Source: Synechocystis sp. PCC 7338 (GTDB lineage Bacteria; Cyanobacteriota; Cyanobacteriia; Cyanobacteriales; Microcystaceae). From it: 64,000 nt of DNA. Positions 7,628 to 40,915 of this stretch are shown piece by piece. The DNA lies in contig NZ_CP054306.1 of the NCBI RefSeq assembly GCF_018282115.1, positions 2,465,488 through 2,529,487 of the forward strand. Direction: 5' to 3'. Position 1 is the stretch's first letter, and every line of letters starts with the position of its first letter. Position numbers and translations under genes: made by a program. The notes under the pieces were generated by a model. It worked only from the letters and a program-made list of their open reading frames with translations, was not told the origin of the DNA and ran no database searches.

Positions 7628-7790
7628 CCCAGTCAACACCATTGGGCAATGTTAGTTCAGGTCGGTAAATTGTGGCGTGGGTCTATCAACAACGGGCAGT
7701 GGAAATAGAGAAGGACAACAGCAAAAAAATAATTTCCCTTGGTTGATTGCTAAACTTAATTGTTGATTGAACCTTAAGCTTAGTGTGCCC

Positions 7791-10166
7791 ATGCCTGTTG
7801 TCCCCGACTACCTTGCCCATCTTAATCCTTCCCAAAGGCGGGCGGTGGAGCATTTTTGTGGCCCTCTTTTGGTGGTGGCCGGGGCCGGCTCAGGGAAAAC
7901 CAGGGCATTAACCTACCGCATTGCCCACCTCATTCGCCAACATCGTATCAATCCGGAAAATATTTTGGCGGTCACCTTCACCAATAAGGCCGCTAAGGAA
8001 ATGAAGGAAAGGTTGGAAAAGATCTTTGCCCAGGCCTGGGCCCAGCAGGAATTTAATCAACGCTGGGAATTGCTGGGGGCATATGAACAAAAACAGTTGC
8101 TTTCCAGGGTATACAAAACGGTCACCAAACCCCTCTGGATCGGCACTTTCCACAGTCTGTGTTCTCGTATTCTCCGCTACGACGTTGATAAATATCAGGA
8201 CACTAGTGGCCGCCGTTGGACAAAACAGTTTTCTATTTTTGATGAAAGTGACGTGCAAAGTTTGTTTAAAACTATTGTCACTAAAGATATGGATTTGGAC
8301 GAAAAACAGTTCAATCCTAAAAGTATTCGCTACCAGGTCAGTAATGCGAAAAACCTCGGGCAATCACCAGAAACCTATCTACGGGAAAATCCCAGCTATA
8401 AAGGCAGAGTCATTGCCGAAGTTTACCAGGCTTACCAAAATCAATTGGCGGCTAATAATGCCCTAGATTTTGATGATTTAATTCTGATTCCCACCCGTTT
8501 ATTTCAGCAAAATGAATCAGTTTTAGGCTACTGGCATCGTAAGTTTAACCATATTTTGGTGGATGAATATCAAGACACTAATCGTATCCAATATGATTTG
8601 ATTCGTCTGCTGAGCACCAATGGGGAAGAACGACAGTCGGAGTGGGATTGGCGGGGACGTTCCACCTTTGTGGTGGGGGATGCGGATCAATCCATTTACA
8701 GTTTTCGCATGGCGGACTTTACCATTCTGCTCAATTTTCAGGATGATTTTGGCGATCGCCTGGTGGATGAGGAAACGGAAACCATGGTCAAACTGGAGGA
8801 AAATTACCGTTCCCGGGAAAATATCCTCCAGGCAGCTAACCATTTAATTGAACATAATAGCCAACGCATTGATAAGGTGCTAAAAGCTACCCGCAGCGGT
8901 GGGGATGATATTATCCTTTACCAAGCCGATGATGAAAGGGATGAGTCCCGTTTTGTAATTAATAAAATTCTGAGCTTAAGAAAAAATAATCCCGAACTAA
9001 ACTTTGGTAGCTTTGCCATTTTGTATCGCACCAATGCCCAATCCCGAGCCTTTGAAGAACAGCTATTAAATAATAATATTCGCTACAATATTGTTGGTGG
9101 GTTTCGCTTTTATGATCGCCAGGAAATTAAAGATGCCATTGCCTACCTCCGGATATTGGTTAATCCTGCCGATACGGTAAGCTTGTTGCGGATTATCAAT
9201 ACTCCCCGACGGGGCATTGGTAAATCCACCATTGAAGGTTTTGTAAATGCGTCCAAAGAATTGGAGATTCCCCTGTGGGAAATTATCACCGATGAAACTT
9301 CTGTGAACACCCTAGCCGGGCGATCAGCCAAGAAAACCCTCCAATTTGCCCGCATGCTCCAGGAGATTCAAAGCCAGATTAGCGACCTTACGGCATCGGA
9401 AGCCCTTAGTATGGTGCTGGAAAAATCTAATTATGTGGAAGATCTAAGGCAAAAGGGTACGGAAGAAGCGGAGAATCGCCTAGCTAACCTGGGGGAATTG
9501 GACAATGCAGTGCGACAGTTTCAAGCAGAAAGTGAAGATCCCAGCCTAGTGGAATTTTTGGCTTCGGCATCCCTCACCTCCGACCTCGATGACTTGGAGG
9601 AATCCGGGGATGAAGTTTCCCTTATGACTCTCCACTCCGCCAAGGGACTGGAATTTCCGGTGGTCTTTTTGGTGGGGTTGGAGCAGGGCACTTGTCCCCA
9701 TGCCCGCAGCTTAAACGATCCTTTGGATCTGGAGGAGGAGCGTCGTTTATGTTACGTGGGCATTACCAGGGCCCAAGAAAATCTCTTTTTAACCCATGCC
9801 CGTATGCGTTATGTCTGGGGTTCTTTGGAAACCAAAATCCCCTCCCAATTCCTCCAGGAATTACCGCCGGATTTACTGGCCGATGGCTCAACGGGTCGAA
9901 AAAATAGTCGCTATGTCCCCGCCGCCGATCCCAAGGACCCTTCCATTGCCCAAAAACAGGCCCGGAAAAAAGGCAGTTCCCAGTCCGCCAAACCAGCCAA
10001 AGACCTGATCTGGAATGTTGGCGATCGGGTCATGCATAACAATTTTGGGGAAGGCACTGTAACCCACATTTTGGGCAAAGGCCATAAGGCTAATTTGGCC
10101 ATCAAATTTCCCGGCATTGGAGTGAAAATTATTGACCCCAGTTTCGCCCCTCTACGCCACCCTTAA
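7791..10166 (+). CDS. pcrA: UvrD/PcrA/Rep-type superfamily 1 DNA helicase
   Basis: A 3'-5' DNA helicase of the UvrD/PcrA type, acting in repair and in clearing replication blocks. Walker A AGAGSGKT lies near the N-terminus (LNPSQRRAVEHF just before), AVTFTNKAAKEM is motif Ia, VDEYQDTN motif II, VGDADQSIYSFR motif III, LEENYRS motif IV, LMTLHSAKGLEFPVVFLVG motif V and RRLCYVGITRA motif VI. A C-terminal basic linker and a Tudor-like end (VGDRVMHNNFGEGTV) match PcrA. I chose the ATG at 7791 (MPVVPDYL), giving 791 residues; an upstream TTG at 7767 is less likely. A MITE-like element begins 1 bp after the stop codon. Confidence 0.93.
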   Translation: MPVVPDYLAHLNPSQRRAVEHFCGPLLVVAGAGSGKTRALTYRIAHLIRQHRINPENILAVTFTNKAAKEMKERLEKIFAQAWAQQEFNQRWELLGAYEQKQLLSRVYKTVTKPLWIGTFHSLCSRILRYDVDKYQDTSGRRWTKQFSIFDESDVQSLFKTIVTKDMDLDEKQFNPKSIRYQVSNAKNLGQSPETYLRENPSYKGRVIAEVYQAYQNQLAANNALDFDDLILIPTRLFQQNESVLGYWHRKFNHILVDEYQDTNRIQYDLIRLLSTNGEERQSEWDWRGRSTFVVGDADQSIYSFRMADFTILLNFQDDFGDRLVDEETETMVKLEENYRSRENILQAANHLIEHNSQRIDKVLKATRSGGDDIILYQADDERDESRFVINKILSLRKNNPELNFGSFAILYRTNAQSRAFEEQLLNNNIRYNIVGGFRFYDRQEIKDAIAYLRILVNPADTVSLLRIINTPRRGIGKSTIEGFVNASKELEIPLWEIITDETSVNTLAGRSAKKTLQFARMLQEIQSQISDLTASEALSMVLEKSNYVEDLRQKGTEEAENRLANLGELDNAVRQFQAESEDPSLVEFLASASLTSDLDDLEESGDEVSLMTLHSAKGLEFPVVFLVGLEQGTCPHARSLNDPLDLEEERRLCYVGITRAQENLFLTHARMRYVWGSLETKIPSQFLQELPPDLLADGSTGRKNSRYVPAADPKDPSIAQKQARKKGSSQSAKPAKDLIWNVGDRVMHNNFGEGTVTHILGKGHKANLAIKFPGIGVKIIDPSFAPLRHP

Positions 10167-10167
10167 C

Positions 10168-10390
10168 TAACGTGAGTTCGGGATGAGAAAGATGACTGAC
10201 AATAGGCTACAAGCTTTATAGGTCAATACATTCGGGAATGACATCAGACTCGTGATTTGTGTTTTTGCATCCTCACAAGTGATTTTTTTGAAGTCCTGAA
10301 GCTCCAAATCCCCCAGTGTAGCTGGCGAAAAAACCTCCATTGCAGTCAGAGCAATACTTCTAAGGATTGGCTTAACCCGAACTCACATTA
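10168..10390 (+). mobile_element. MITE-like element, copy 1 (219 bp plus TA duplication)
   Basis: A 219-bp unit (10170-10388) with 13-bp terminal inverted repeats, ACGTGAGTTCGGG at the left and CCCGAACTCACAT at the right (one mismatch), flanked on both sides by TA. The TA target is typical of IS630/Tc1/mariner transposition. It carries no transposase; the longest internal frame is 57 codons. The second copy at 11411-11629 is the same length and reverse-complementary with only about three differences. It starts immediately after the stop of the helicase gene. Confidence 0.8.
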
Positions 10391-10428
10391 AATATTAACC
10401 CCAGTGTCTTTGCACTTGAACGACTACA

Positions 10429-11364
10429 TTGACTCTCACCCTCTGGAAGCGTTTTCAATCCTCCGCCTCTAACCCTTTAATTTCACCCTGTGACCCTACT
10501 GAGCTCGATATCCTTGCACGCACAACCCTTCTTTCTCCCTGGCAGTTCTACCGCTACGTCTGCAACATTTGCCAGCAAAATGGCTATGAGCGTTTGTATT
10601 TCGGTCATTTGCCTTGTATTTTCTGTGATTATTTGCCAGAACCACTGCTTCTTGCTTTTTTTGATCGCTTAGCACAGAGTGTAGGGAGATCACCGCAGCC
10701 CTTCCCAAAAACAACTCTCCACCTTCAGAGTCTGCAAAGTACTCTGGAACTTCGCATCAGCCATGCTGGAAGTGGAATGATCGGACAAGTAGTTAGGCTT
10801 GATATAACATACGGGGAGAAGACGCACTCCTGGGCATTTAAAGCCTTTTTCGAACCGGATTTCGTCTGGCAACATGGCGTTTGGTCCGAGATACCAGTAG
10901 GAATATATTTGCAATCCCAGCATGTCACCCGTGACGTAGCGCAGTTCCATGCCGCTGGACTCACCTGGATGCTGTGTGAATGGATCGAACCGGATGATTG
11001 TCCTAAAACTCGTCCTGGACGCTCCTATGATAGTCTAGCTCAACAGCAGCAACTCACACCCCTTAATCCTCTCAACTACGCCAACTACAGTCGCCATGGC
11101 ATTCGTCTTGATCTCGGTGGCATTCAACGGATCTACTGGGGACGAAGAATTCGCGATTTTGCTTACACGCTGGTTTTCTATCACAGGCGAGTCCATCGGG
11201 AAGGATGGCGCTTTCTCAGTCCCTATCTCAATCGTTGGACTCTCCGCTACCTTCTGGCAAGGGTGAAATGGTTGCTGTTTCTAAGAGGATCAACGTGCGC
11301 ATTTGAACAAAAAGTTACAGTTTCGGAGGAAAAGCCTTCAAGGCAAGGGTCTCAAGAATCTTGA
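10429..11364 (+). CDS. Unrecognised 311-residue cargo protein between MITE copies
   Basis: I do not recognise this protein. It is basic and rich in Trp, Tyr and Arg, has no signal peptide and no clear transmembrane segment, and contains a CNICQQNG...CIFCDY cysteine cluster near residues 45-66, a conserved-looking HGIRLDLGG stretch around 225 and a basic, aromatic C-terminal part. The first usable codon is a TTG at 10429, with an in-frame TGA at 10417 and no ATG for about 120 codons, so the 5' end may have been cut by the MITE insertion. It has no HIP1 site. It could be an intact gene with a weak start or a truncated foreign gene. Confidence 0.55.
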   Translation: MTLTLWKRFQSSASNPLISPCDPTELDILARTTLLSPWQFYRYVCNICQQNGYERLYFGHLPCIFCDYLPEPLLLAFFDRLAQSVGRSPQPFPKTTLHLQSLQSTLELRISHAGSGMIGQVVRLDITYGEKTHSWAFKAFFEPDFVWQHGVWSEIPVGIYLQSQHVTRDVAQFHAAGLTWMLCEWIEPDDCPKTRPGRSYDSLAQQQQLTPLNPLNYANYSRHGIRLDLGGIQRIYWGRRIRDFAYTLVFYHRRVHREGWRFLSPYLNRWTLRYLLARVKWLLFLRGSTCAFEQKVTVSEEKPSRQGSQES

Positions 11365-11408
11365 GGTGGAACATGGCTTAGTATTAGCAACGGAAAAATT
11401 TTGGTAGT

Positions 11409-11631
11409 TAACGTGAGTTCGGGTTAAGCCGATCCTTAGAAGTATTGCTCTGACTGCAATGGAGGTTTTTTCGCCAGCTACACTGGGGGATTTGGAGCTT
11501 CAGGACTTCAAAAAAATCACTTGTGAGGATGCAAAAACACAAATCACGAGTCTGATGTCATTCCCGAATGTATTGACCTATAAAGCTTGTAGCCTATTGT
11601 CAGTCATCTTTCTCATCCCGAACTCACATTA
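11409..11631 (-). mobile_element. MITE-like element, copy 2 (inverted)
   Basis: Same 219-bp unit as at 10170-10388 in opposite orientation (11411-11629), again with a TA on each side. The two copies differ at only about three positions, two of them in the terminal repeats. A 57-codon frame (11459-11632, starting MEVFSPATLG) opens inside it and stops at the right end; it shows no transposase motif that I recognise and may be a scrap of the parent element. Confidence 0.8.
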
Positions 11632-11681
11632 GTCACAATACAAGTGACCCAATAAAGATGCAAAACTGGTTAAATCAGAGA

Positions 11682-12635
11682 CTATTCTTCATAATATTCA
11701 GGCATTTTTTCCCGGCGGGTTTCTGGAATATTTACCCGGGGAGGACTATAGGGGGCAGCGGCTTCATCGTCGTCCCAGACATCGCCGGCCACCTCATCTT
11801 CGTAGCCATAATCGGGTTCTGGAGCAGAGGAACGGGGCACCGCCTCTCCCCAGTTGTCCACTTCATAGTCATCTTCGTATTCCGGTTCTGGGTAGCGTAG
11901 GGGGGCTACTTCCCGACGAGGGGGGGGCGCAGGGCGATTATCTTGCCAATCGTCTTCGTTCCAACGCTCTTCCAACACAGGCTCTGGTTGACGGACCTGC
12001 ACCGGGGGCCGCACGGGGATGCCACTACCTAGTTGGTTCTCGGGACGGGTGGTGGGAGGATAATACAAATCTTCTTCCATGCGCTCCCAGGATGGGCGAC
12101 CAATACCAAGCCGTTCCAGCAATCCCACGCTCAGTTGGTTGAGTCTTTCTTCGGCACCTTCAAAAACTATCAAACGGTTGGGGCCACTACTGACCACTTC
12201 GTCAATGGATAGCTCGTAGGTGCTGATCAATTGCTCTGGAATCTGTGGTAATCCCAGAGAAGCAATGATAATGGAGGAAACTTTACCCGTGGCGAGGTCA
12301 AACTGAAAATCCCTTACCCGGCCCAGGGGTTCTCCCGTTTCGGTCACCACTTCGCTATTGACCAGAGGGGAATAAAGATCCACTTCCACCAGTTCGAAAA
12401 CGTCATCGTTCTCTACCAAGACCACGTCCCCGGTTTGGACAATGCTGTTCAGATAAAGATATTGGGGCATTCCCGTCAGGGATAGAAAGTTGTCCCGCAG
12501 TCCCAGGGCGACAATTTCTCGCTGATCGACATCGACTAGCACTTCTTTGACTACCCCAAGTTTTTTGCCACTACTGCGGGTAATAACTTCGGTGTTAATA
12601 AATTCGTTTCTAAGACGGATGTTATCAATTGTCAT
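11682..12635 (-). CDS. PRC-barrel domain protein
   Basis: A 317-residue protein with two PRC-barrel-type repeats in the N-terminal half: residues 1-70 open with RLRNEFINTEVITRSSGKKLG and the second copy begins near residue 90 with LYSPLVNSEVVTETGEPLG. The C-terminal 130 residues are low-complexity, rich in Pro, Glu, Asp, Arg and Tyr, with repeated EPEYEDDYE-like acidic runs. No signal or membrane segment. PRC barrels occur in RNA-processing and photosynthetic reaction-centre proteins; the role of this cyanobacterial form is unknown. It is 51 bp or more from the right MITE and opposite to it. Confidence 0.8.
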   Translation of the reverse strand: MTIDNIRLRNEFINTEVITRSSGKKLGVVKEVLVDVDQREIVALGLRDNFLSLTGMPQYLYLNSIVQTGDVVLVENDDVFELVEVDLYSPLVNSEVVTETGEPLGRVRDFQFDLATGKVSSIIIASLGLPQIPEQLISTYELSIDEVVSSGPNRLIVFEGAEERLNQLSVGLLERLGIGRPSWERMEEDLYYPPTTRPENQLGSGIPVRPPVQVRQPEPVLEERWNEDDWQDNRPAPPPRREVAPLRYPEPEYEDDYEVDNWGEAVPRSSAPEPDYGYEDEVAGDVWDDDEAAAPYSPPRVNIPETRREKMPEYYEE

Positions 12636-37559: not shown

Positions 37560-38123
37560 CTAGGTCATAGGCTTCACAGCCTGCATGGAAAAACCTTCTT
37601 TCTTCAAAGATTCTGCCAAAGCCAGGGGATTGTCCACCCGGTCCACAAACATAACACCATTAAGGTGGTCCATTTCGTGTTGAATTACCCTAGCAGTTAG
37701 CTCAGCAAAAAGGCGTTTTTGGGGGCGGCCATGCTCATCCTTGTAGGTCACTTCGATCGCCCTGGGTCGGGTAACATCCATATAAACATTGGGTACACTC
37801 AGACAACCCTCTTCCACCACACAAAGTTCTTCGCTAGTGCGGGTAATCTGGGGATTGATCATAATTAGGGGCGGTTCATCAGGCTTATCCTGTTCACAGT
37901 CCACCACCAATAATTGTTTGTTAACCCCCACTTGGGGCGCAGCTAAACCAATGCCGTTAGCACTGTACATGGTCTGCAACATCTCCTTGGCCAATTTGCG
38001 GATACTGTCATCTACCTTGGCAATGCGCTTGGCCGGTTGTCGGAGCACTTTATCTCCCAGGTAATGGAGTTCCAAAGGGGGATGATCAACTTTTTGCTTT
38101 TCAACGAGGAGGGTGGCAGTCAT
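37560..38123 (-). CDS. def: Peptide deformylase
   Basis: A 187-residue Fe/Zn hydrolase that removes the formyl group from nascent proteins. The three family motifs are intact: GIGLAAPQVG, EEGCLSVP (Cys ligand) and QHEMDHLNG (His ligands and catalytic Glu). It is divergent from surE, and a 217-bp gap with nothing recognisable separates it from the small membrane protein gene. Confidence 0.96.
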   Translation of the reverse strand: MTATLLVEKQKVDHPPLELHYLGDKVLRQPAKRIAKVDDSIRKLAKEMLQTMYSANGIGLAAPQVGVNKQLLVVDCEQDKPDEPPLIMINPQITRTSEELCVVEEGCLSVPNVYMDVTRPRAIEVTYKDEHGRPQKRLFAELTARVIQHEMDHLNGVMFVDRVDNPLALAESLKKEGFSMQAVKPMT

Positions 38124-38252
38124 GGACGTTCTACGGGCCTATCTCAACAATGGGGTCTCAGACTACATCTTAACAAAATCACGGCCTGGACAATTTTCGC
38201 TATGGTTTAAAGGGCTTGTTTAGCTTTGCCAGTTTGATTAGTGCTTTATCCT

Positions 38253-38930
38253 ATGAATTTTTTGCTCACCAATGACGATGGCATTGACGCCCCTGGTATT
38301 GAAGCTCTCTACGAAGCCCTTGGTAAACGGGGTGTGTGGGTGGCCCCAAAAAATCAACATTCCGGCTGTGGCCATAAGGTGACCACAGACCAGGCGATCG
38401 CCGTGGAGCAGAGGGGCAAAGACCGTTACGCAGTGGACGGCACTCCGGCGGACTGTACCCGTTTAGGGGTGGTTCATTTTTATCCAGAAGTGGACTGGGT
38501 CATTGCGGGCATTAATGCGGGGGGCAATATGGGCATCGACTCCTATCTCTCCGGCACAGTGGCGGCGGTACGGGAGGCCGCGATCCTTGGCCACAAGGCG
38601 ATCGCCATTTCCCATTGGATCAACAAACCCCGCACCATTGATTGGGCCTGGGCTTCCCACTGGGCTAACAAGGTCTTGACCACCCTGTGGCAACAGGATT
38701 TACCTCCCCAACATTTTTGGAACGTTAACCTCTCCCATTGGCAAAGCGGCGATCCGGAACCGGAATTGATTTTTTGTGAACCCAGTCGAGATCCTCTCCC
38801 CGTAGCCTTCACCATAGAAGGGTCAAATTTCTTTTACCGGGGAGAATATAGCCAGCGACCGCGACAACCTGGATCCGACATTGACGTTTGCTTTTCCGGC
38901 AACATTGCCATCACCCAGCTCAAAATTTGA
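38253..38930 (+). CDS. surE: 5'-nucleotidase SurE
   Basis: A 225-residue metal-dependent nucleoside-monophosphate phosphatase. The N-terminal metal-binding motif is LLTNDDGIDAPGI; the second Asn region is VIAGINAGGNMG and SGTVAAVREAAI follows. ATG 38253 is preferred to the GTG at 38241. The next gene begins 240 bp further on; the gap holds only a weak CCCCT/AGGGG hairpin and no gene. Confidence 0.94.
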   Translation: MNFLLTNDDGIDAPGIEALYEALGKRGVWVAPKNQHSGCGHKVTTDQAIAVEQRGKDRYAVDGTPADCTRLGVVHFYPEVDWVIAGINAGGNMGIDSYLSGTVAAVREAAILGHKAIAISHWINKPRTIDWAWASHWANKVLTTLWQQDLPPQHFWNVNLSHWQSGDPEPELIFCEPSRDPLPVAFTIEGSNFFYRGEYSQRPRQPGSDIDVCFSGNIAITQLKI

Positions 38931-39170
38931 TTGGGTCAGTCCCAATATCGAGAAAATGGTCAACGTATTTAGATGGGAACTGGTTTAGTAGGTTGTGCCC
39001 AGCCCCTTAAATTTTTGCCCTAAAGCTCTAGGCTACTCTGGGGTTATCCCCTTTGAATTAGGGGTCAGGGGGATTCTTGAAACACATTCTGGGTAAATCG
39101 CCAAACGCGGCTCCTAGGGATTTCTGAGTAAAATACAGGGGAAGTTGCCCGTTTTAGGAAACTTAAGCAA

Positions 39171-39833
39171 ATGGTTATAGCTCCCCATCGCACCATTATT
39201 TATCCCGACAGCGACGGCCAACCCATGGCGGGTAATACAGAACAGTTTCAATGGATTGTTTTACTCAAGGAAAATCTGGAATGTCTTTTTGCCCAAGATG
39301 CCAACATTTTTGTGGCAGGGGATTTACTCTGGTATCCGGTGGAAGGACATCCCGAAATTCGTGTGGCCCCTGATGCCATGGTGGCCTTAGGGCGACCCAA
39401 GGGAAAACGAGGCTCCTATCGGCAATGGGAGGAAGATAATACTGCTCCCCAGGTGGTCTTTGAAATCCTCTCTCCCGGTAATCGTGCCAAGGAAATGATT
39501 CGCAAATTACAATTTTATGAACGCTACGGAGTGAATGAGTATTACGTTTATGACCCTGATGACAACGAATTAACTGGACTGCAGCGGGGAGAAAACGGAT
39601 TAGAGATGATTGAGACCATAGAAGATTGGACTAGCCCCCTCCTGGGCATTCGTTTTCTACTTACCCCCGATACCCTAGAAATTTATTATCCTGACGGCCG
39701 CAAGTTCCTGACTACGGTGGAGTTTAATCAAGAAATGGCCAAGGAAAAGCAACGGGCTAACGAGGAACAACAACGGGCCGATCGCCTGGCGGCCAAACTA
39801 AAGGAATTGGGCGTTGATCCTGAAGAAATTTAA
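39171..39833 (+). CDS. Uma2-family (DUF820) endonuclease-like protein
   Basis: A 220-residue intact member of the Uma2 family, with PDAMVALGRPKGKRGSYRQW, APQVVFEILSPGN and YERYGVNEYYVYDPDDN, and a charged helical C-terminal tail (EKQRANEEQQRADRL). The PD-(D/E)XK-like fold suggests nuclease activity, but function is unproven. It is a paralogue of the frameshifted gene at 15073-15716. It stands 44 bp ahead of hypE on the same strand. Confidence 0.85.
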   Translation: MVIAPHRTIIYPDSDGQPMAGNTEQFQWIVLLKENLECLFAQDANIFVAGDLLWYPVEGHPEIRVAPDAMVALGRPKGKRGSYRQWEEDNTAPQVVFEILSPGNRAKEMIRKLQFYERYGVNEYYVYDPDDNELTGLQRGENGLEMIETIEDWTSPLLGIRFLLTPDTLEIYYPDGRKFLTTVEFNQEMAKEKQRANEEQQRADRLAAKLKELGVDPEEI

Positions 39834-39877
39834 GTTCTTGGCCGTGATTTTCCCTCCCATAAAGAGATTAACTTCTA

Positions 39878-40915
39878 GTGAACTTAGCCTGTCCCATCCC
39901 CCTTGAACGTTATCCCCAGGTGCTGTTGGCCCACGGTGGGGGCGGTAAGTTGAGCCAACAATTACTCAAGCAAATTTTTCTACCGGCCTTTGGCGCTTCC
40001 GAAACAGGCAGCCATGACGCGGCGGTGTTTACAGTTAACCCTGGATCCTGGGCCTTCACCACCGATTCCTACGTAATTAATCCCCTCTTTTTCCCTGGGG
40101 GCGATATTGGTTCTTTGGCAGTCCACGGTACTGTTAATGACCTGGCCATGGCCGGCGCTACTCCCCGTTACATTAGCGTTGGTTTTATCCTGGAAGAAGG
40201 ATTGTCGATGGAAACCCTCTGGCGGATAGCCCAATCCCTGGGGCAAGCGGCGAAAAATTGTGGCGTGGAAATTATTACTGGCGATACCAAAGTGGTGGAC
40301 CGGGGTAAGGGGGACGGCATTTTCATCAACACCAGTGGCATTGGTTCCCTTGACCATCAACAAACTATCCATCCTAGTCAGGTACAGGTGGGCGATCGCC
40401 TGATTCTTAGTGGGGATTTGGGTCGTCACGGCATGGCCATTATGGCGGTGCGTCAGGGGTTGGAATTTGAAACCACCATTGAGAGTGATTCAGCCCCGGT
40501 TCATCAAGAAGTGGAAGCTTTATTGTCGGCGGAGATACCGATCCATTGTCTACGGGATTTAACTAGGGGAGGGCTGGCCAGTGCGGTGAATGAAATTGCC
40601 CAAGCCGCCGGAGTAACCATGGCTTTGCGGGAAAATTTGATTCCGGTGGAGACAGAAGTGCAGGCCGCCTGCGAACTATTGGGTTTTGACCCCCTTTATG
40701 TAGCCAATGAAGGACGATTTTTAGCCATTGTGCCCCCAACAGCAGAGCAAAAAACCCTAGAAATTTTGCAAACTTTCCACCCCCAAGCCACGGCGATCGG
40801 TGAAGTTACAGGCAAAAGTGAGCAGAGTTTGGGGTTAGTCAGCCTGGAGAGTCGCATTGGTGCGTCCCGTTTGCTAGACATGATCAGTGGGGAACAATTG
40901 CCTCGTATTTGTTAG
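39878..40915 (+). CDS. hypE: Hydrogenase maturation protein HypE
   Basis: A 345-residue enzyme that, with HypF, makes the cyanide ligand of [NiFe] hydrogenase by dehydrating a thiocarboxamide on its own C-terminal cysteine. The AIR-synthase-like fold is visible (LAHGGGGKLSQQL, AVFTTDSYVINPLFF-like segment, ITGDTKVV), and the protein ends in LPRIC, supplying the essential terminal Cys. The start is GTG at 39878. No other hyp or hox gene lies in the window. Confidence 0.95.
   Translation: MNLACPIPLERYPQVLLAHGGGGKLSQQLLKQIFLPAFGASETGSHDAAVFTVNPGSWAFTTDSYVINPLFFPGGDIGSLAVHGTVNDLAMAGATPRYISVGFILEEGLSMETLWRIAQSLGQAAKNCGVEIITGDTKVVDRGKGDGIFINTSGIGSLDHQQTIHPSQVQVGDRLILSGDLGRHGMAIMAVRQGLEFETTIESDSAPVHQEVEALLSAEIPIHCLRDLTRGGLASAVNEIAQAAGVTMALRENLIPVETEVQAACELLGFDPLYVANEGRFLAIVPPTAEQKTLEILQTFHPQATAIGEVTGKSEQSLGLVSLESRIGASRLLDMISGEQLPRIC

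Follow-up and report, generated by a model that had tools for sequence, protein, structure and literature searches.

A single 311-codon gene in Synechocystis sp. PCC 7338 is bracketed by two near-identical, inverted 219-bp elements, and the locus raises the question of whether this pair carried the gene in as a passenger or came to surround a gene that was already resident. The DNA analyzed, referred to here as the window, is a stretch of 64,000 nucleotides, and positions are numbered from its first letter. The feature is real and well delimited. The kind of event behind it is ordinary, with a useful before-and-after comparison in a sister species, Synechocystis salina LEGE 00031, and the locus has the look of a routine DNA rearrangement, not of a novel transposon with a cargo gene. 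The features of the locus are as follows.

7767..10166, + strand: helicase gene from the list of open reading frames, presumably of the UvrD/PcrA type from its sequence; homologues in S. salina and in a second relative (G002)
10164..10169: TAACTA, the reverse complement of 11405-11410; read as the helicase-side target duplication copy of a younger insertion
10170..10388, + strand: left 219-bp IS982-ended element, with ends ACGTGAGTTCGGGATGAG and ATGTGAGTTCGGGTTAAG
10389..10394: TAAATA (reverse complement TATTTA), the flank on the 5' side of the gene; read as a duplication copy of the older element; TATTTA adjoins the S. salina element
10429..11364, + strand: 311-codon gene, an open reading frame with a putative TTG start; member of a sparse family of cyanobacteria, in the opposite orientation to S. 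salina
11405..11410: TAGTTA (reverse complement TAACTA), now 3' of the inverted gene; taken to pair with 10164-10169
11411..11629, - strand: 219-bp IS982-ended element on the right side, in the opposite orientation to the left one
11630..11635: TAGTCA, where S. salina has TACTTA; taken as the outer duplication of the older element after decay
11682..12635, - strand: 317-aa neighbour gene, which we take to be PRC-barrel-like; borders the unit in S. salina too, and is not beside the helicase gene in G002

Anatomy and family of the paired elements

The longest inverted pair in the window (10166-10394 vs 11405-11633) spanned 229 nt, was 98% complementary, and had arms 1010 nt apart. The initial annotation had described two near-identical 219-bp copies with about three differences around the gene, and this was borne out, with mismatches at exactly 3 positions (2, 199, and 218). 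Its view that two non-autonomous, transposon-derived elements bracket one gene was supported as well, and no open reading frame of at least 70 aa overlapped either element. Chance cannot account for 98.6% identity over 219 bp. In the 3.83-Mb genome of this strain, 2 copies were found and none besides (all 6 candidates were scored), and exact matches to GTGAGTTCGGG were limited to the four ends of both elements. Folding of the left element as RNA gave a z of -2.4, which is expected because of its inverted ends.

Some details were corrected. The 13-bp terminal repeat was right as ACGTGAGTTCGGG, but one end of each window copy is altered to ATGTGAG. The left element, earlier placed 1 bp past the helicase stop, does adjoin the helicase end, but three bases separate the stop from the element proper; the stop codon TAA (10164-10166) supplies the first three bases of the 6-bp repeat TAACTA. 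The lack of a HIP1 site in the gene is correct but carries little weight, since the 47 sites in 64 kb predict about 1.1 per 1.46 kb and zero is expected about one third of the time. At one end of each copy, the second base of the terminal repeat has changed from C to T (10387 and 11628), and both altered ends lie at what would be the older insertion site.

The family of the elements was assessed in 386 genomes drawn evenly across the phylum, with 2 candidates scored per genome; rarer or diverged copies may be missed by this design. Matches at E <= 0.01 were obtained in 19 of the 386 genomes. Full-length matches were confined to this strain (2 copies) and to S. salina (which we take to be genome G001; 1 copy), and the remaining 17 genomes held short pieces, many of them at element ends. 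We examined 12 of the 26 listed match places, namely those at element ends, and at 2 of these 12 (L040 and L044) the open reading frames were IS982 transposases (262 and 265 bits on NF033520, cut-off 130; DDE_Tnp_1_3). A scan of five genomes of the genus identified one, S. salina, with a full IS982 transposase (298 aa, 244 bits on NF033520, cut-off 130), besides which there were three weak matches below the cut-off. The IS982 element of S. salina is 989 bp long with ends ACCTGAGTTCGGGATAAG and ACGTGAGTTCGGGTTAAA, and the window element is identical to the right end of this element over runs of 15 and 13 bases and to its left end over 12 bases. The element ends begin with AC (ACGTGAG); the S. 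salina copy has AC at both ends, and one end per window copy is now AT. In an IS982 survey, 57 of 69 elements begin with AC, and target duplications, when present, are given as 2-10 bp, with 6 bp for ISNsp1 of Nostoc (excerpts of PMC7335449). Because the ends match the S. salina IS982 element, the starts are AC, and the duplication lengths lie within the range of that survey, each 219-bp unit is classed from its sequence as a non-autonomous IS982-family element (MITE). No IS982 transposase was found in the genome of this strain (16 of 16 candidates scored), and the elements look immobile there at present.

The rule for target duplications was derived from G404 and G194, two genomes with many MITEs that end in this way. 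Both ends were present in 29 of the best 30 loci of G404, where 17 duplications were perfect at 6 bp, 4 were perfect at 7 bp, and three more were perfect at 8 bp; by comparison, 27 of 812 mismatched control pairs were perfect at 6 or 7 bp. G194 had 19 loci, 18 of them with both ends, and showed 6 perfect 6-bp and 5 perfect 7-bp duplications and two more at 8 bp, against 19 perfect pairs among 306 mismatched controls. Agreement of at least 5/6 or 6/7 between unrelated sites was common (192 of 812 pairs in G404 and 67 of 306 in G194). In 16 of the 29 G404 loci, the 6 bases both began and ended with TA, and the partner began with TA as well. Among the three full IS982 elements, a perfect 6-bp repeat was seen for L040 alone, while L044 and the S. 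salina element each agreed at 3/6. One MITE of G404 (G404:C1, loci L072-L101) is 145 bp long and IS982-ended; 117 matching pieces were listed, with about 40 long copies among the 40 of 126 candidates scored. Many of these copies carry intact duplications, and this MITE would be a good system for IS982 target choice.

An IS630-type parent, proposed at the outset, was not upheld: IS982 transposases are encoded by full elements whose ends are very similar, and related MITEs mostly have 6-8 bp duplications. An IS630/Tc1-mariner MITE was likewise rejected, with IS982 elements as partners and duplications longer than TA in MITEs with such ends. The TA noted at each end is present, but as the edge of a 6-8 bp duplication and not as TA alone. 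The family assignment is thus corrected, in that cyanobacterial elements with ACGTGAGTTCGGG ends and flanking TA are IS982-type, mostly with 6-8 bp duplications. The IS630/Tc1-mariner element ISY100 of Synechocystis PCC 6803, as described in excerpts of PMC2170065, also has TA beside its ends, but it has 24-bp repeats and duplicates TA, whereas duplications here are longer and the partners are IS982; this distinction was drawn from its published description.

The surveyed IS982 family has autonomous members of about 1 kb, ends that mostly begin with AC, and, when present, short duplications of 2-10 bp (excerpts of PMC7335449); the window elements resemble it but have no transposase in their 219 bp. 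A 240-bp IS982-derived MITE was already known in Cardinium (MITECca01), which resembles the window element in its size of about 240 bp, IS982-type ends, and lack of a transposase gene (excerpts of PMC9769881). According to the same excerpts, MITECca01 has 169 copies beside intact parents; in contrast, the present genome has 2 copies and no IS982 transposase, and S. salina has one copy and one full IS982. Among plasmids, the element had no credible match (1 weak 37-base match, E 0.7), and its 32-base core had 0 exact matches in viral contigs.

The arrangement in Synechocystis salina

The flanks inside the window can be paired in two ways. Without an inversion, each pair agrees at 5/6 (TAACTA/TAAATA and TAGTTA/TAGTCA); with an inversion, the pairs agree at 6/6 and 4/6. 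These pairings are equally good, so reading an inversion from the window flanks alone was given up and a sister genome was needed. The window flanks by themselves do not prove an inversion, and the case depends on S. salina.

On S. salina contig NZ_JADEVV010000007.1 (L003), the order is the helicase gene, the junction CCCTTAACTTCC, the gene in reverse, one element, and the neighbour gene. The protein encoded by the gene is 96% identical, and the gene lies between the same two neighbours in the opposite orientation. The single element is at the 5' end of the gene, and the helicase-side junction CCCTTAACTTCC has no element and an empty site, TAACTT. When the window segment was turned back and one TAACTA was removed, the result aligned to the S. 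salina junction without gaps and with one substitution. After this un-inverting, the helicase-side flanks are TAACTA/TAACTA, and the older duplication is decayed (TATTTA/TAGTCA in the window and TATTTA/TACTTA in S. salina). Short direct duplications like those of IS982 MITEs would thus be present, conditional on the inversion.

The window copies differed from the S. salina copy at 10 and 9 positions, and 8 states were common to both window copies against S. salina. Position 16 is G in both window copies and A in S. salina and nearly all listed IS982-type ends, although the search pattern had TAAG built in, with as many as 3 mismatches allowed, and position 16 is therefore weak evidence. The timing of the copies supports a younger second copy, and gene conversion between the copies could also be the source of their young look.

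The inversion case rests on one sister genome; the other three of the five genus genomes had no match to the gene or the element. In a relative (G002), the helicase gene lies at 236 kb and the 317-aa neighbour gene at 3,288 kb on a single contig, and neither the 311-codon gene nor the element was matched. Because the helicase and neighbour genes are far apart in G002, with gene and element unmatched there, the site at 10166-11682 is, as far as gene order indicates, a synteny break and an older rearrangement point.

Divergence from S. salina was uneven along the locus. The NG86 dS was 0.09 for the gene, 0.36 for the helicase gene, and 0.48 for the neighbour gene, and per-site divergence was 3-4% for gene and element and 8-10% for the flanks. 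We considered low divergence of gene and element as proof of recent mobility and set this aside, with housekeeping genes at 37.6-40.9 kb about as low; we read it instead as exchange between lineages by homologous recombination. In that housekeeping stretch (37560-40915), by eye with peptide deformylase-, SurE-, Uma2-, and HypE-like genes, dS vs S. salina was 0.07-0.16 for four real-looking genes, and most other genes had 0.2-0.5; the dS table includes antisense and start-extended open reading frames, and its lowest values are not all real genes. The low values at 37560-40915 also suggest exchange between lineages.

Possible routes to the inverted arrangement

The history that we consider probable begins with an old element next to a gene that was already resident; a second copy then entered at the helicase stop, and the gene was inverted afterwards. 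The common ancestor would have resembled the S. salina arrangement, and the second copy would have entered TAACTA in the lineage of the window. The helicase reading frame would have been left intact because this insertion site overlaps its stop codon. The gene, then lying between inverted copies, would have flipped, and the most likely cause is that the 219-bp repeats underwent homologous recombination with each other. Such a flip would have placed the two copies of TAACTA in inverted orientation at a distance of 1.2 kb and changed the orientation of the gene from convergent with the helicase gene to downstream of it on the same strand. The locus would then be a concrete case, with a sister-species "before" state, of a tiny non-autonomous element being duplicated locally and a resident gene reversed with neighbouring frames unbroken. 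A weaker variant is that the pair forms a recombination-driven invertible cassette, with the gene either downstream of or convergent with the helicase gene.

Insertion followed by recombination is preferred only moderately because the precise mode of IS982 transposition is stated as unknown in the excerpts of PMC7335449. This statement leaves room for a one-step route, in which the older element transposed replicatively "in trans" within the chromosome into TAACTA, copying the element and inverting the gene. We regard this as a distinctly less likely course. A single event would suffice from the S. salina state, and the inverted copies, inverted segment, and inverted duplication fit a replicative adjacent inversion, as in the product of intramolecular replicative transposition "in trans" shown in excerpts of PMC5142620. 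Those excerpts describe the route for elements other than IS982, however, and for IS982 replicative transposition is hypothetical. In addition, the genome now has no IS982 transposase, and insertion then recombination yields the identical end product. There is thus perhaps some chance, tentatively put at well under one half, that IS982-type replicative intramolecular transposition left its natural footprint here, with the MITE copied and the adjacent gene inverted in one event. If so, it would bear on the IS982 transposition mode.

The orientation call depends on assembly across a 219-bp inverted repeat. It is therefore conceivable, if unlikely, that no inversion took place in the cell and that a simple second insertion was followed by mis-orientation of the 1-kb middle in the assembly, or that the culture holds both isomers. 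Such a mis-orientation would account for all of the observations. The un-inverted segment does read as two simple insertions (TAACTA/TAACTA and TATTTA/TAGTCA) with the S. salina gene orientation; on the other side, the chromosome is one 3.70-Mb contig in a 4-contig assembly, which suggests finishing or long reads.

Very unlikely, in our estimate, is the opposite polarity, with the paired-element arrangement of the window as the ancestral one. S. salina would then have reversed the gene and, through precise excision between TAACTA repeats, shed the element next to the helicase gene. The un-inverted 5/6 duplications possible from the window flanks would permit this history, but both a flip and a precise excision are required in S. 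salina, all 8 common states must be put down to change in S. salina or to spread through conversion, and position 16 looks derived in the window.

A composite transposon of two MITEs bringing the gene as a passenger, as first proposed, can be dismissed almost entirely: the anatomy is suggestive, and the flanks have diverged from S. salina more than gene and element have, but the outer flanks of the pair (TAACTA vs TAGTCA) match at only 3/6, S. salina has this gene in the same place beside a single element, and low dS is not peculiar to the unit (0.07-0.16 in the housekeeping genes at 37.6-40.9 kb). MITE-bounded composites of the TIME-COMP type (PMC13367494) likewise consist of two non-autonomous elements bracketing DNA, and are reported to mobilise it, but the window unit has no sign of whole-unit movement. 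On the best reading the two elements have separate insertion histories, with one element in S. salina and the other site empty there; the initial annotation had named such separate histories as a result that would refute its proposal. Sequence comparison thus points to a resident gene and to an element pair that is not a composite transposon.

The 311-codon gene

Family members of the gene were found in 9 of 98 relatives and in 14 of 386 genomes of the phylum sample, both counts including the present genome and S. salina; at most 5 candidates were scored per genome in the phylum-wide search, and rarer or diverged copies may be missed. The 14 phylum-sample members comprised 10 strong matches and 4 weak ones, the latter all from a single distant family whose genomes are small. 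The gene had been suspected of being captured or truncated. This did not hold up, because close members have open frames of 289-366 aa, and their alignment covers almost the full length of the gene, starting near residue 23.

The gene had no match in Pfam, NCBIfam, or PADLOC and one chance-level match in PHROG (E 0.32), and its homologues gave only weak single-member family matches, such as FTA2 at 0.041. No solved structural relative was found by sequence, and the structure model of the gene product was unusable (pLDDT 33). There was no match in plasmids or phages, and a pattern scan gave no viral relative. Promoter and terminator scans were not above chance, and Rfam gave no match.

The motifs GxGxxGxV, AFK, and RLDxGG were invariant in 9 aligned rows, and one later member has ALK. 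The 311-aa protein family has no clear catalytic-loop Asp; a weak relative in L071 has HMDLYSADN ahead of IIDLGG. When compared by hhalign with 12 kinases from its own genome, the Gly loop and Lys were paired, but not significantly (probability 0.5%, P 0.11). The label "kinase-like" from GxGxxGxV, A[FL]K, and DxGG may serve as a lead only. The weak relatives in L068-L071, from small genomes of the same phylum, are kinase-like by eye, and two of them are in proteins with HEAT-type repeats (L069 over and L070 under the Pfam cut-off). In three genomes (L010, L012, and L013) the homologues adjoin permease genes, which we assume to be MacB-like, and in L010 and L013 a presumably MacA/HlyD-like gene lies on the opposite side. 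This neighbourhood hints at a possible link with export.
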